62,319 nucleotides of DNA. It comes from an uncultured Fidelibacterota bacterium (GTDB taxonomy: Bacteria > Fidelibacterota > Marinisomatia > Marinisomatales > Marinisomataceae). Below, one piece after another: positions 2,208 to 29,698 of the stretch. Every line of letters begins with the position of its first letter. Within the stretch, counting starts at the first letter, position 1. The DNA is taken from NCBI GenBank assembly GCA_902578385.1, contig CACHCR010000001.1, positions 1-62,319 on the forward strand, in the 5' to 3' direction. The notes under the pieces are model-generated. The model saw only the letters and a list, made by a program, of their open reading frames with translations. It did no database searches and had not been told where the DNA came from. A program made the translations under genes and the position numbers.

Positions 2208-3344
2208 TTAATTTGGTTCTAAATATAGCTTAATATTTTCATCTAAAATAAGTAAATCTTCTAAAGAAGGTAGATCATCAGATCCAAATTCGCTTACAAC
2301 CTCTTTAGTAAGAATGAATATTTGATTAAAGGAAATTTTTTCATCTAGAAATTTTTGTACTATGTAATCATTCGCAATACTCATAACAGCTACCCTATTG
2401 CCACCTAACTTTATAAGCTCATGTACAAGACCTAGAATGGGATATCTTTTATAATCAGGAGATTGAAATGCAAGACTTAAATCACTTAAATCTAAACTAT
2501 CGATAGCCAATGTTTTTCTTGCTGGATAGGTTAACGCATATTGTATAGGGACTTTCATATCGGGTGTGCCTAAATGTGCTTTGTAGGAACCATCAATAAA
2601 TTCAACCATTGAATGAATAATTGATTGTGGATGTATTGTAATTTCAATTTGTTCAATATCTATATCAAAGAGCCATATCGCCTCTACTAACTCTAAAGCT
2701 TTATTCATCATTGTAGCTGAGTCAATTGATATTTTTTTACCCATGTTCCAATTAGGGTGTTTAAGAGCCTGAGCTGGTGAAATTAAATCAAATTCGCTAA
2801 GTGGTTTTTCTAGAAATGGACCTCCACTCCCCGTGAGAATTATTTTTTTTAAATCTGAATGATTTTCACCATGTAGACATTGAAAAATTGCAGAATGTTC
2901 ACTATCAACGGGTATAATTTTAACATTATTTTTTTTTGCAAGAGGCATTATAAAATGCCCTCCTAATACTAAAGACTCTTTGTTACTTAATGCAATATCT
3001 ATCCCATTTTTAATAAGTTCTACTGTAGGTTTTAAACCTGAAGTTCCAACAATTGCATTAATTGCTAAATCGATATTTTGAAAAGGAATTTTAGATGAAG
3101 AATTTTCTCCATTATAAACTTTAATATTATTGTGATGACAATAGTCAAATAATTCATGGGATGAGTCAATCTTATCAATTGCAACTATCTGTGGTTGGTG
3201 TTCTTTTATTTGATCTAATAATAATTCTGAATTTGAATAACAACTAAGCCCAATAACTTTATGTGAATTACTTTTTGATATTACATCTAATGATTGAACC
3301 CCAATTGATCCTGTTGAACCCATAACAAAAACATTTTTTTTCAT
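2208..3344 (-). CDS. dxr: 1-deoxy-D-xylulose 5-phosphate reductoisomerase
   Basis: A 378-residue protein. It has the N-terminal NADPH motif GSTGSIG (about residues 9-15), the NKES motif with the following glycines, PVDSEHSA (metal ligands), TGSGGPF, and HPNWNMGKKISIDSATMMNK, all diagnostic of DXR. It converts DXP to MEP with NADPH and a divalent metal, the first committed step of the non-mevalonate isoprenoid pathway. The gene sits between lpxA (8 bases upstream) and rseP (6 bases downstream), so it is likely co-transcribed with lipid A genes. Other pathway genes (ispE, ispDF) lie at 22-24 kb, and uppS is in this same operon. Confidence 0.96.
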   Translation of the reverse strand: MKKNVFVMGSTGSIGVQSLDVISKSNSHKVIGLSCYSNSELLLDQIKEHQPQIVAIDKIDSSHELFDYCHHNNIKVYNGENSSSKIPFQNIDLAINAIVGTSGLKPTVELIKNGIDIALSNKESLVLGGHFIMPLAKKNNVKIIPVDSEHSAIFQCLHGENHSDLKKIILTGSGGPFLEKPLSEFDLISPAQALKHPNWNMGKKISIDSATMMNKALELVEAIWLFDIDIEQIEITIHPQSIIHSMVEFIDGSYKAHLGTPDMKVPIQYALTYPARKTLAIDSLDLSDLSLAFQSPDYKRYPILGLVHELIKLGGNRVAVMSIANDYIVQKFLDEKISFNQIFILTKEVVSEFGSDDLPSLEDLLILDENIKLYLEPN

Positions 3345-3352
3345 TTGAAATA

Positions 3353-4123
3353 TTAGATAATTCCTCTATTGCTAGATTCATAAAAACTAATGATATCATT
3401 GATATGACTGTTATGGTGAAGCTCTTTTTTAACTTTATCTAGAGCATTTGATTGATTTAATTCTGACCTAAAAAGATATCTATATGCTTTTTTAATATCA
3501 GCCTTTTCATCATCAGAAAATCCTCTTCTAGTCAACCCAATTGAGTTAATCCCAGAGTATTTAACAGGATGTTTACCAGCAAGAATAAATGGAGGAATGT
3601 CTTGTACTATTTTTGAATTGGCAGCTACCATTGCATGTTTTCCTACTTTACAAAACTGGTGTACATTACTTGCTCCGCCAAGTATTGCCCAATCATCTAT
3701 TTCAACATGTCCTCCTAAAGCAACAAGATTGACAAGTATAACGTTATTCCCAATAATACAATCATGTGCAACGTGAACACCTGTCATTATTAGCACATCT
3801 TCACCAATTCTAGTTTCACCAGTTTCTTTAGTACCCCTATTTAAAGTAACAAACTCTCTTATTATGGTTCTATCGCCAATAATTAATTTGCTTTGTTCTC
3901 CTTCAAACTTTTTATCTTGAGGGATAGCTCCAATACTGCTATTATGAACTAACTGACAATCGTTTCCAATCTCAGTGAACTCAGATATTGTATTAAAATT
4001 ACCTATTTTTACATTGTCACCAATTATGACGTTATCTTCGATAACATTATAGGCGCCTATCTGAACATTTTTACCAATCTTTGCAGATGTGGATATAATA
4101 CTTGTCTGATGTATGTTACTAAT
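3353..4123 (-). CDS. lpxA: UDP-N-acetylglucosamine acyltransferase, apparent ATT start
   Basis: First acyltransferase of lipid A synthesis, moving a 3-hydroxyacyl chain from ACP to UDP-GlcNAc. The frame gives 256 residues (E. coli LpxA has 262) with left-handed beta-helix hexapeptides and the HVAHDC catalytic-His segment. No ATG, GTG or TTG occurs in frame until a GTG at 3796, which would remove about 110 conserved residues. The residues before it are clearly LpxA: the frame reads SNIHQTSIISTSAKIG just after the ATT codon at 4123-4121, matching the family's usual 'MS.IHPTAII' opening. AGGAG lies 6 bases upstream of that ATT and overlaps the fabZ stop. I therefore place the start at ATT; a sequencing error of an ATG is the alternative. 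The frame is also continuous with fabZ apart from its single UAG stop. Confidence 0.88.
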   Translation of the reverse strand: MSNIHQTSIISTSAKIGKNVQIGAYNVIEDNVIIGDNVKIGNFNTISEFTEIGNDCQLVHNSSIGAIPQDKKFEGEQSKLIIGDRTIIREFVTLNRGTKETGETRIGEDVLIMTGVHVAHDCIIGNNVILVNLVALGGHVEIDDWAILGGASNVHQFCKVGKHAMVAANSKIVQDIPPFILAGKHPVKYSGINSIGLTRRGFSDDEKADIKKAYRYLFRSELNQSNALDKVKKELHHNSHINDIISFYESSNRGII

Positions 4124-4132
4124 TTTCTTCTC

Positions 4133-4564
4133 CTATTTATCTACCACCGAAGCTAAGAACTCAGCTTTAGCAATCAGTTCTTTGTCAACATGACATGTTG
4201 CTTCAAATTTAAAAGAATTTAACTTTTCATTTAATACTTTAGCATTAATAATAATTTGATCTCCTGGTATTACATTTTTCAATATTCTAAAATTGGATAC
4301 TTTTGATAAGTAAACTAAATGTTCATCAGGATTATCAATATAGTCTAAAATAATTAAACAGGCAGATTGAGCCATAGATTCTAAAAGCAACACTCCTGGC
4401 ATAACAGGTTTTTCTGGAAAGTGCCCTTGAAAAAAATGTTCATTAAAAGTGACATTTTTAAGAGTTGTAATTTCTTTTTTTTCTTTTTTATCTTCAATCC
4501 TATCTATTAATAAAAAAGGATATCTATGTGGAATTACTTTTAATATGTAGTTAATATTTTTCAT
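4133..4564 (-). CDS. fabZ: 3-hydroxyacyl-ACP dehydratase FabZ
   Basis: A 143-residue hotdog-fold protein. It carries HRYPFLLIDRI near residue 12 and GHFPEKPVMPGVLLLESMAQ near residues 47-66, which includes the catalytic His and Glu. It dehydrates 3-hydroxyacyl-ACP in fatty-acid elongation and competes with LpxA/LpxD for the same hydroxyacyl-ACP pool, hence its regular place in lpx operons. Its ATG overlaps the lpxC stop (ATGA). Its TAG stop forms part of the AGGAG that precedes lpxA. In many Bacteroidetes LpxC and FabZ are one fused protein; here they are separate but overlapping. Confidence 0.95.
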   Translation of the reverse strand: MKNINYILKVIPHRYPFLLIDRIEDKKEKKEITTLKNVTFNEHFFQGHFPEKPVMPGVLLLESMAQSACLIILDYIDNPDEHLVYLSKVSNFRILKNVIPGDQIIINAKVLNEKLNSFKFEATCHVDKELIAKAEFLASVVDK

Positions 4565-5481
4565 TTGAATTGATCTTTAAATTCTTTTCTTAATAATCTG
4601 GCAAATTCTACATTACCTTTATGGCCACTCTTAATTGCAGTAACATGACCTTTAATAGGCATACCAAGCAAAGCTAAATCTCCAATTAAATCTAATGTCT
4701 TATGTCTAACAGGTTCATTTTTAAATCTTAATTGTTGTGATTTATACAATCCACGAGACCCGCGATGAAACTTAATTCCAAACTTTTCTTTGAATAAATT
4801 TACTTCATCTCCATCAATATCAGTATCAACAATTATCACTGCATTACCTACATTACCCCCCTTGATAAGCCCTTGTTTTGCCAGCTCTGTAACTTCACTT
4901 AATAAACAAAATGTTCTAGCTGGTGCAATTTGTTTTTCATAATTAGTATATGCATTTTGAATAGAACTATATTGTACATCCAGATCATCAAGATCATATT
5001 GAATAGTAAAGGTTGTTTTAAAGCCGTCGTAAGGGACAGCTAATACTTCTACATCTTTGTCTTCATCATTATATACTACAGGTTTTGTAATTTCCAAAAA
5101 GTTTACAGGTGCATTTTGTTCAACAATTTGACCTTCTTTTAAAGAAGAAACAAAATCCTTAGAACTGCCGTCCATAACTGGTGGTTCTTTGCTATTAAGC
5201 TCAATTAATAGATTATTAATTCGCATTCCAGCACATGCTGACATAACATGTTCAGTAGTATGTACTCTCACTCCATTCTCCTCAATAGTAGTTCCTCTGG
5301 TTAAATCAACTACATTATCAATATCTGGAGTAACAACTTTATCTCCTTTATCATTTCGGATAAACTTTATTCCAGTATTTTCATCGGCTGGATGAAATGT
5401 GACAGTGCTTTGCACTCCTGTGTGTAAACCCACACCAGTACATGAAACTGAATATTTAATTGTTTTCTGTTTAGATCCCAT
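4561..5481 (-). CDS. lpxC: UDP-3-O-acyl-N-acetylglucosamine deacetylase
   Basis: A 306-residue LpxC, full length for the family. Visible motifs are TGVGLHTG at the N-terminus, HTTEHVMSA near residue 78 (zinc His), MDGSSKDF, KHKTLDLIGDLALLG near residue 260 (zinc His and Asp) and GHVTAIKSGHKGN near the C-terminus (catalytic His). It removes the acetyl group from UDP-3-O-acyl-GlcNAc, the committed step of lipid A synthesis, in the cytoplasm. It overlaps lpxD by 11 bases upstream and fabZ by 4 bases downstream, consistent with translational coupling. Confidence 0.96.
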   Translation of the reverse strand: MGSKQKTIKYSVSCTGVGLHTGVQSTVTFHPADENTGIKFIRNDKGDKVVTPDIDNVVDLTRGTTIEENGVRVHTTEHVMSACAGMRINNLLIELNSKEPPVMDGSSKDFVSSLKEGQIVEQNAPVNFLEITKPVVYNDEDKDVEVLAVPYDGFKTTFTIQYDLDDLDVQYSSIQNAYTNYEKQIAPARTFCLLSEVTELAKQGLIKGGNVGNAVIIVDTDIDGDEVNLFKEKFGIKFHRGSRGLYKSQQLRFKNEPVRHKTLDLIGDLALLGMPIKGHVTAIKSGHKGNVEFARLLRKEFKDQFK

Positions 5482-7009: not shown

Positions 7010-9385
7010 TTAAAAAGTTTGTCCAAATGTAATAGTATACTCCCAACCTTGGGCATTTCCATCACCATTTATATCATCAAAACCATACCCCATATCAAAG
7101 CCTAATTTACCAATACCTGGCATAAAAAACCTAACACCAACTCCGGCAGACTTTTTCATAGAAATTGGGCTAAATCTATCAATGTAAAATGGCTCTGTCA
7201 ATGAGGATGTATTCCATACATTACCCATCTCTCCAAAAGCCATAATATAGATTACCGGATTTTCAGATAACGGGAATCTTAATTCTGTAACAAATCTACC
7301 CATTGAATTACCTCCAACAGCTTGACCTGTAACAGTTTGAGGGCCAATTGCATTGTCAGGGTATCCCCTTAAAGCATTACCATAAGGTATTCCATTACCA
7401 CCCATAATAAATCTTTCATCAAACGGAACAAAGGATTGAATATCATCAACATCAATAGTTTTTATTACTCCAAGCTTTACTGAGTTATAAAGAATAACTT
7501 TTGAAAAAGTTGGTGTAAACCAATCTAATGTCAACATATGTTTTTGAAAATTCTCATTTCCTCCAAGAAATCCGCCTGAATAGGTGTTTTCTAAAATAAA
7601 AGTGGAGCCATTTGTTGGGAATTCAGCTCTGTTTCTGCTATCTCTAGAAAGAACTTGAGAAAGGCTTATACCCCTGGTTTTTTGGAGACCGCCAATATAA
7701 TTATCTATATCGTCCTGCGATCCTTCATACTCTTTTTGCATCACTTTTGCTGACCACATTACCCTAAAAAAATCATCTGGCCATTCTAGTCTTCTTCCAA
7801 AGCTTGCTACTGCACCAGCAACTGTAAAGTCTAGAGGGAAATAATAATTAGTAGATGAACCTCTGAAAGAGTAAAAAAGAGATGCACCAACTAAATAAGG
7901 GCTATCATTTATCATTGGATCTTGAAAACTTACATTCATTGATCTATACTTTGATGGTTCTTGAGTCGTATAAACTGAAAAATTAGTACCTGTACTTAAA
8001 CCAACATTTAGCTTTTGCCCTTTACCTCTAAAATTATCGAACTCAACACCAGCTCCTCCTGTGATACCATACTCACCTGTAAACCCAAGGTTGGCATTAA
8101 TTCTTTGAGTAGATTTTTTTTCTTCTACGACAAAATCAAGATTTACCTTATCATCTGAAATAGGTGTTACATCTGGTATGACATTATCAAAATAATTTAA
8201 AATCCAAATATCTCTTTGACTGCGCATTAATTTTGATCTACTAAACACATCGCCTGGATAAAGTTTTAATTCTCTTCTGATTACATTTTCTCTTGTTTTT
8301 TCATTCCCTGAGACAAATATATTTTCGACATATACTTTATTCCCTTCATTAAAAACAAACTTAACATCTAACGAGTCCTGACCTGCAGGTACAATTTCTG
8401 GAGTAACACTGCTAAAAATATATCCTTTATCTTGATAAGTGCTCATCATATTTTCATAAACAGACTTATCAAATTGCTCTTTAGAATACATATCTCCACT
8501 TTGCATTCCTAGCAATCTATTAAGCTCTTCTTTTTCAGCAATCTGGTTTCCTTCAAAGATAAAATTTCTATAGTAATACTTAGGGCCTTCTTCAATCTCA
8601 ATCTGTAGAGTAAGAGAGGAGTCTTCTTCGTTAACTATCAAAGAATCACTTAAAACTCTGAAATCTCTATGCCCTTCGTTTTGATAGAATGAAGTTAAGG
8701 TTGCTTTATCTTCATTGAAGGTCTTAGGATCATAATTTTTAACCCAAAATGTCCACCATTTTTTTTGCTTTGTATTAGATAATTCTTTTCTAAGCTTACG
8801 ATTTGAAAAGCTATTGTTGCCTTCAAAAACAATGTTTTTCAGCTGATATTTTTTGTTTTCCTTTATTGTAAATAAAATATCTCTAGCGTAATCAACTCTT
8901 ACTATAGTATCTTGGGGAACTACAACAGAAGATGAAACCTCAACATTAAAATATCCATCTTCTTTATAAATTTCTGTTATTTTTCTTGAAGCTTTATCAA
9001 GCGAATTCGGTTTAATTCTTTGACCAGATTTAATTTCAAGTTTTTCCCTAAACCTTGCCTCTCTTACAGTCATGCCTTCAAATAATACCTGATTTAAAAT
9101 AGGACTTTCAGCAACCTTGATTGTTATTTCTACGCCATATTGAGATTCATTATTTAAAACAATGTTTACATCCTCAAATAGGCCTAAATCCCACAATCTC
9201 GTAATTGCTGTTGAAATATCTGATCTTTGAATTTGGGTGCCATCTCTAAGCCCCGCAGAATATTTAATCATCTTGTCAGACGTTGTGGTGTTACCTTCCA
9301 CATTAACACGAGACAGAGTAACCTGTTGTGAAAATAAGCTTGTTATAAAACACGCCAATAAAATAAGTATTTTAAACATCCTCAT
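7010..9385 (-). CDS. bamA: BamA outer-membrane assembly protein (Omp85)
   Basis: A 791-residue precursor with a signal peptide ending near FSQQ (residue 21). It has about five POTRA-type repeats to roughly residue 410, each with 'V...GN......I' strands, and a C-terminal surface-antigen barrel (about 430-791) ending in Phe, the usual outer-membrane signature. BamA is the core insertase of the BAM complex. A second in-frame ATG lies two codons into the gene. The gene starts 3 bases after the uppS stop, and the Skp-like partner follows, so the two work together in outer-membrane protein biogenesis. Confidence 0.95.
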   Translation of the reverse strand: MRMFKILILLACFITSLFSQQVTLSRVNVEGNTTTSDKMIKYSAGLRDGTQIQRSDISTAITRLWDLGLFEDVNIVLNNESQYGVEITIKVAESPILNQVLFEGMTVREARFREKLEIKSGQRIKPNSLDKASRKITEIYKEDGYFNVEVSSSVVVPQDTIVRVDYARDILFTIKENKKYQLKNIVFEGNNSFSNRKLRKELSNTKQKKWWTFWVKNYDPKTFNEDKATLTSFYQNEGHRDFRVLSDSLIVNEEDSSLTLQIEIEEGPKYYYRNFIFEGNQIAEKEELNRLLGMQSGDMYSKEQFDKSVYENMMSTYQDKGYIFSSVTPEIVPAGQDSLDVKFVFNEGNKVYVENIFVSGNEKTRENVIRRELKLYPGDVFSRSKLMRSQRDIWILNYFDNVIPDVTPISDDKVNLDFVVEEKKSTQRINANLGFTGEYGITGGAGVEFDNFRGKGQKLNVGLSTGTNFSVYTTQEPSKYRSMNVSFQDPMINDSPYLVGASLFYSFRGSSTNYYFPLDFTVAGAVASFGRRLEWPDDFFRVMWSAKVMQKEYEGSQDDIDNYIGGLQKTRGISLSQVLSRDSRNRAEFPTNGSTFILENTYSGGFLGGNENFQKHMLTLDWFTPTFSKVILYNSVKLGVIKTIDVDDIQSFVPFDERFIMGGNGIPYGNALRGYPDNAIGPQTVTGQAVGGNSMGRFVTELRFPLSENPVIYIMAFGEMGNVWNTSSLTEPFYIDRFSPISMKKSAGVGVRFFMPGIGKLGFDMGYGFDDINGDGNAQGWEYTITFGQTF

Positions 9386-29006: not shown

Positions 29007-29552
29007 ATGAAAAGCCTAAAAAATAAACTATTAATCTCAATGCCAAACATGGTTGATCCCTACTTTTCTAAGAGTGTTATTTTTATTTGTGAAGACGACA
29101 AAAATGGCACTATGGGGATTATTGTAAATAAACCAATTAGCAAAATGAAGGTGGTTAGCTCTGGAATTAAAAATAAAATATTTGAAGACATTCTCAATGA
29201 ATCCGATAAAATTTATTTTGGGGGCCCTGTTAACCTAAATGAAGCTTGCATTGTACAAAAAAATACTGGTAAAGCAGACGATTTTTCAGAAAAAATTGAA
29301 TTATCTACAAATCTAGACCTAATCCAAGAAATACTTTTTAATGAAAAAACACCAAAAGATACTAAGTTAATTTTTGGACATGCCGGTTGGGATAGACATC
29401 AACTTGAAGATGAAATAAAAAGAGGTGACTGGTTAATTCAGGACTATAGTGATTCAATTTTTAATTCATCTCCAAATGATTTGTGGAACGAATTAATTCA
29501 TGTTTATGGTTTAGATAGCTACGGTTTTGTAGGCGCCGGAGGAATTTCGTGA
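29007..29552 (+). CDS. YqgE/AlgH family protein (DUF179)
   Basis: A 181-residue protein. 'LLISMPNMVDPYFSKSVIFI' near the start, NGTMGIIVNKP near residue 36, and 'GHAGWDRHQLEDEIKRGDWL' near residue 125 match the YqgE/AlgH fold. The biochemical function is unknown; the family was named from alginate regulation in Pseudomonas. I see no ribosome-binding site close to the ATG. It ends in an ATG-like overlap with a tiny ORF (next entry). Confidence 0.88.
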   Translation: MKSLKNKLLISMPNMVDPYFSKSVIFICEDDKNGTMGIIVNKPISKMKVVSSGIKNKIFEDILNESDKIYFGGPVNLNEACIVQKNTGKADDFSEKIELSTNLDLIQEILFNEKTPKDTKLIFGHAGWDRHQLEDEIKRGDWLIQDYSDSIFNSSPNDLWNELIHVYGLDSYGFVGAGGIS

Positions 29553-29698
29553 TTAAAAATATTAAAAAAATTCAGCAAGATGTAAAAAAGAAGAGGGCTA
29601 CAAACGCTACAAACGGAATGCAATTAATAGTAAATGGAATGTCTTTGTTTAAAAGGGGTATGATCTTGTTGATTGGTGAGGTTTTTACAAAAAAATAA
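29549..29698 (+). CDS. possible small protein, 49 codons
   Basis: A GTG overlaps the algH stop (tcGTGAtt) and opens a 49-codon frame ending TAA at 29696-29698, just before the convergent enoyl-reductase stop at 29702. The product would be basic at the N-terminus (IKNIKKIQQDVKKKR), then 'ATNATNGMQLIVNGMSLFKRG', ending in a short hydrophobic part. I recognise no family. The case rests on the stop-start overlap, the filling of the gap and the Lys-rich codons. It could instead be a chance frame in a 3' untranslated region. Confidence 0.35.
   Translation: MIKNIKKIQQDVKKKRATNATNGMQLIVNGMSLFKRGMILLIGEVFTKK

Follow-up and report, generated by a model that had tools for sequence, protein, structure and literature searches.

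A putative ATT start codon of lpxA and the conservation of weak codons at this site in one class of Fidelibacterota

The gene for LpxA, which catalyzes the opening step of lipid A synthesis for the outer membrane, almost certainly starts at an ATT codon (4123-4121, minus strand) in the window, the whole stretch of 62,319 nucleotides that was analysed. To judge from the start codons of related genomes, a weak start of this kind, be it ATT, ATC or ATA, is conserved between species across a class of uncultured marine and related bacteria. We favor the reading that it serves as a translational brake that keeps the synthesis of LpxA low, and would place the probability of this role at roughly 60%.

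The start site of lpxA and its reading frame

We read the minus strand anew and confirmed both the ATT and the AGGAG that the earlier note had placed 6 bases upstream of it; the spacer occupies positions 4129-4124, and the ATT is followed by AGT AAC ATA CAT CAG, which encodes SNIHQ. The claim that the frame is devoid of ATG, GTG and TTG upstream of 3796 stood as well, as none of the three occurs between the fabZ stop and the GTG at 3796-3794, a codon that lies 109 codons inside full-length LpxA. Because an in-frame stop is located only three codons before the ATT, no canonical start fits the gene. The coordinates of the features are collected in Table 1.

Table 1. Features around the lpxA start, with their positions in the window
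Feature	Position	Strand	Evidence
ATT start codon of lpxA, presumably read by the initiator tRNA	4121..4123	-	
Shine-Dalgarno sequence AGGAG, shared in part with the fabZ stop, 6-base spacer to the ATT	4130..4134	-	
TAG stop codon of fabZ, 9 nt upstream of the lpxA start	4133..4135	-	
lpxA coding sequence, 256 codons from the ATT plus stop	3353..4123	-	
GTG, first in-frame canonical codon, internal, not the start	3794..3796	-	coding constraint upstream
fabZ, upstream gene, ATG start	4133..4564	-	
lpxC, ATG start, stop overlapping the fabZ start	4561..5481	-	
dxr (presumed from sequence and operon context), downstream gene, ATG start	2208..3344	-	tblastn matches in relatives

Translation from the ATT yields a full-length LpxA (acyl-ACP--UDP-GlcNAc O-acyltransferase) that scores above the curated cut-offs, with 325.6 bits against the NF003657 equivalog (cut-off 226), covering residues 2-256, and 312.6 bits against TIGR01852 (cut-off 231). 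The codons ahead of the GTG are translated, as the relatives differ there mainly at third positions: of the codons that differ from locus L006 within codons 2-109, 36 are synonymous and 11 nonsynonymous, and codon positions 1, 2 and 3 show 8, 3 and 41 differences, respectively. These comparisons made use of L006, L007 and L012, while L011 and L015 were left out, their loci being reversed. In view of this coding constraint upstream of it, the internal GTG was rejected as the start of lpxA. As far as the reading frame indicates, lpxA is thus a gene with a non-canonical start, in which no canonical codon is available and the conserved protein begins at ATT. The N-terminal peptide predicted for LpxA is SNIHQTSIISTSAK with the methionine removed (or kept), and such a peptide is impossible from the GTG at 3796.

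Note that in the region 4133-5481 of the window LpxC and FabZ are encoded by separate genes that overlap by ATGA. Among the families, LpxC nevertheless matches the bifunctional LpxC/FabZ family best, with a score below the cut-off of that family.

Start codons of lpxA in the genus, the class and the phylum

A close match to lpxA was found in 19 of the 24 genomes in the genus set, and the start was read in all 19. It is ATT, ATC or ATA in 15 cases and ATG in 4, and the four ATG genomes form one nested clade in the tree. Several of the weak-start genomes are single-cell genomes, and in one of the 15 (G022) an in-frame GTG is also present one codon upstream of the ATC. Outside the genus we used pattern scans anchored at the conserved Ile-His of LpxA, which gave the 42 bases ahead of it, and the term readable here refers only to genomes whose site fits this pattern, not to all genomes with lpxA. 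Defined in this way, 62 of the 70 readable genomes from the rest of the class have ATT (36), ATC (23) or ATA (3) at the start of lpxA, two have TTG, two have GTG and one has ATG; the remaining three were called as none, one of them with GTC and two with TTG directly before the Ile-His. The comparison of this codon in related genomes that the earlier note had proposed as a check thus came out in favor of the weak start. With the genus included, ATG is found in 5 of the 89 class genomes that were read. Four loci outside the genus, at 51-55% identity (L044, L045, L046 and L091), are likewise without a canonical lpxA start. The GTC case (G041:C55, about 8348-8409) has this codon after AAGGAGTAACC at the start position of lpxA, and the same rare codon is found in sigR of Streptomyces.

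In the other classes of the phylum the start is ATG in 31 out of 31 readable genomes, and each of some 60 lpxA loci from other phyla has a canonical start available. Since ATT, ATC or ATA prevails in the class and only ATG was read in the other classes, the weak start probably has its origin close to the root of the class and was then kept. On the tree of 24 rows, 8 changes of the lpxA start codon are needed, only 2 of which are between ATG and ATH, and about six exchanges among ATT, ATC and ATA are set against a single return to ATG within the genus. A search of one literature library retrieved no paper on the start codons of lpxA or of Marinimicrobia.

The initiation context and other genes with weak starts

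The Shine-Dalgarno sequence is AGGAG at a spacing of about 6 in 11 of the 15 weak-start genomes of the genus, and in none of the four with ATG. In this genome (G000), a Shine-Dalgarno sequence of 4 bases is present at only 160 of the 496 confident ATG starts, against a background of 8%, and all five weak-start genes found here combine one of at least 4 bases with a start no more than 16 nt from an upstream stop. This upstream-stop geometry is not special to weak starts, as it occurs at 60% of the canonical-start genes in the genome. Tight coupling is not required either and can be of help at most, because the start is still weak (ATC/ATT) in L022 and L023, where a gap of about 60 nt separates lpxA from lpxC.

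The five genes, lpxA, infC, uvrC, ddl and a histidine-phosphatase-like gene, emerged from a survey of 848 genes of G000 that were compared with G022 and partly also with G012, and their number is a lower bound, as the survey misses weak starts that have a canonical codon nearby. Start calling by the boundary of conservation proved too noisy, since neighboring coding sequence is conserved as well. The confident canonical starts in the same genome comprise 496 ATG, 38 GTG and 34 TTG, and with weak-start genes as few as 5 among 848, initiation is not generally loose. Apparent ATT starts are located at G000:C7:7135, G000:C5:70651 and G000:C8:17812 in what we take, by recognition of the sequence rather than by a family search, to be uvrC, ddl and the histidine-phosphatase-like gene, respectively. 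For uvrC, the codon is ATT, ATA or ATC in all 24 pattern-fitting loci from 23 genomes of the genus, including those where lpxA has returned to ATG; outside the genus it is ATG in most readable genomes. For ddl, ATT was found in 12 genomes of the genus. The parallel to infC that the earlier note had drawn extends to this very genome, where infC starts at ATT and overlaps the stop of the preceding gene (G000:C3, about 73572; L136:13572). An upstream ATG precedes the Shine-Dalgarno sequence of infC in G000, and in G012 this ATG is replaced by ACG. A further frame without a start, prfB (G000:C9, about 37996), shows what appears to be the ordinary programmed frameshift known for this gene and was set aside as not being a weak-start case.

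IF3 of this genome is 50% identical to E. coli IF3 over its length, and its fidelity domain is present. Residues R99, R131, R133, R147 and R168 are kept and R112 and R116 are lysines. IF3 is intact in 16 of the 17 genus genomes in which it was found. The exception is G022, where infC is frameshifted by several insertions (G022:C2, about 29186-29669); we do not regard this as a loss of IF3, but probably as assembly noise, with 34 of the 848 compared genes split in that genome. The initiator tRNA is a standard one, with a CAU anticodon and the stem GGG-CTCATAA-CCC, and a search of this incomplete and in some stretches masked genome for a special initiator tRNA, whose anticodon would differ from CAU, did not reveal one. 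With a standard initiator tRNA and an intact IF3, initiation at AUU should be weak and opposed by IF3, as is known from other bacteria (PMC5472188).

Possible roles of the weak start and comparison with known systems

In the mechanism that we propose, LpxA would be made from the AUU by the ordinary initiator fMet-tRNA, through near-cognate, mismatched pairing of its CAU anticodon. The strong Shine-Dalgarno sequence at the right spacing would help initiation, as would, in most cases, ribosomes arriving from termination at the preceding gene. Output from such a start should be low, and the weak codon would act as a fixed translational brake by which the entry enzyme of lipid A synthesis is held scarce relative to its co-transcribed neighbors; this low output may itself be what is selected. 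Across the class AUU, AUC and AUA are interchangeable and AUG is rare. This suggests that a weak start of lpxA is under selection, an argument that is built on codon counts in related genomes rather than on formal testing along a tree of the whole class. Among the points against a brake are the return of one clade of the genus to ATG without obvious harm and the use of GTG or TTG by a few members of the class.

A serious rival, albeit one that we hold to be rather improbable, is tolerated drift, where a strong Shine-Dalgarno sequence and coupling would render the exact codon unimportant, such that AUU, AUC and AUA are near-neutral and kept by inertia. The freedom of the third base among T, C and A, the good Shine-Dalgarno sequence and upstream stop at every weak-start gene of G000 and the existence of the ATG clade are in line with this. 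However, a neutral third base should often give G, and ATG should then be favored, yet ATG is confined to the five class genomes mentioned above. The persistence of ATT, ATA or ATC at every uvrC locus read in the genus, even where lpxA has ATG again, and the intact IF3 likewise argue against drift.

A different role, for which the case is doubtful, would be that lipid A is checked at the lpxA start throughout the class, with the level or activity of IF3 setting the output of LpxA, and that uvrC and ddl joined this control later, in one genus. That IF3 actively sets LpxA synthesis and thereby makes lipid A depend on the state of translation, in the manner of infC and sigR, we regard as unlikely. 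In its favor, infC starts at ATT in the same genomes, IF3 represses such rare starts in E. coli and Streptomyces, as in infC autocontrol and at the GTC start of sigR (PMC5472188), and overexpression of IF3 lowers re-initiation (PMC2268962). However, there is no sign of a variable IF3 in these streamlined bacteria, a brake that is fixed would work without any sensing, and some members of the class have GTG or TTG instead.

Less probable still is a balance of LpxA specifically against FabZ, which draws on the same acyl-ACP pool. This throttling had been suggested in the earlier note, and it fits the arrangement in most members, where fabZ lies directly upstream and ends a few bases short of the start of lpxA. 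The suggestion is weakened by four members of the genus, L017, L018, L022 and L023, in which the lpxC-fabZ-lpxA operon lacks fabZ and lpxC is followed by lpxA, yet the start is still ATT or ATC. Conversely, L050, from another class, has fabZ directly before lpxA and yet starts with ATG, and the use of weak starts by the unrelated uvrC, ddl and histidine-phosphatase-like gene also counts against a balance specific to FabZ.

Two further explanations are hardly conceivable: an ATG misread in sequencing or assembly, for which the incomplete assembly might speak, is refuted by the same type of codon in dozens of independent genomes, several single-cell genomes among them, and a FabZ-LpxA fusion by read-through or frameshift, suggested by the location of both genes in one frame with a single TAG between them in G000, is refuted by relatives in which frame and stop vary (gaps of 8 vs 9 nt in close relatives; TAG, TAA and TGA) or fabZ is absent.

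For the brake, lpxA offers an envelope enzyme with a weak start that a whole class has kept and with a sharp transition at the border to the sister classes, and selection for it is therefore directly testable by comparison and with simple reporters. The starts also carry an annotation risk, in that gene callers limited to ATG, GTG and TTG lose the first 109 codons of LpxA and would mis-start or lose uvrC, ddl and infC.

With its start, lpxA joins a small group of genes with conserved non-canonical start codons, in which it stands out for the depth of conservation, an entire class, and for encoding an envelope enzyme. It shares with E. coli infC the AUU, the strong Shine-Dalgarno sequence and the placement at the stop of an upstream neighbor, features that are also those of infC in this genome. 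In contrast to infC, where IF3 controls its own synthesis, lpxA encodes an envelope enzyme without known IF3 feedback, and AUC and AUA are used in addition to AUU. E. coli pcnB is another gene with an AUU start whose product is not an initiation factor, as is the case for lpxA. The LpxA proteins of other bacteria belong to the same enzyme family, and several share the gene order lpxD-lpxC-fabZ-lpxA, but every locus from another phylum and every readable genome from another class that we examined offers a canonical start. The GTC start of Streptomyces sigR (PMC5472188) resembles the situation in lpxA in that a rare start is conserved over many species and one product of an operon is, or in lpxA would be, kept scarce; sigR, however, encodes a regulator, and its control by IF3 was demonstrated by experiment.
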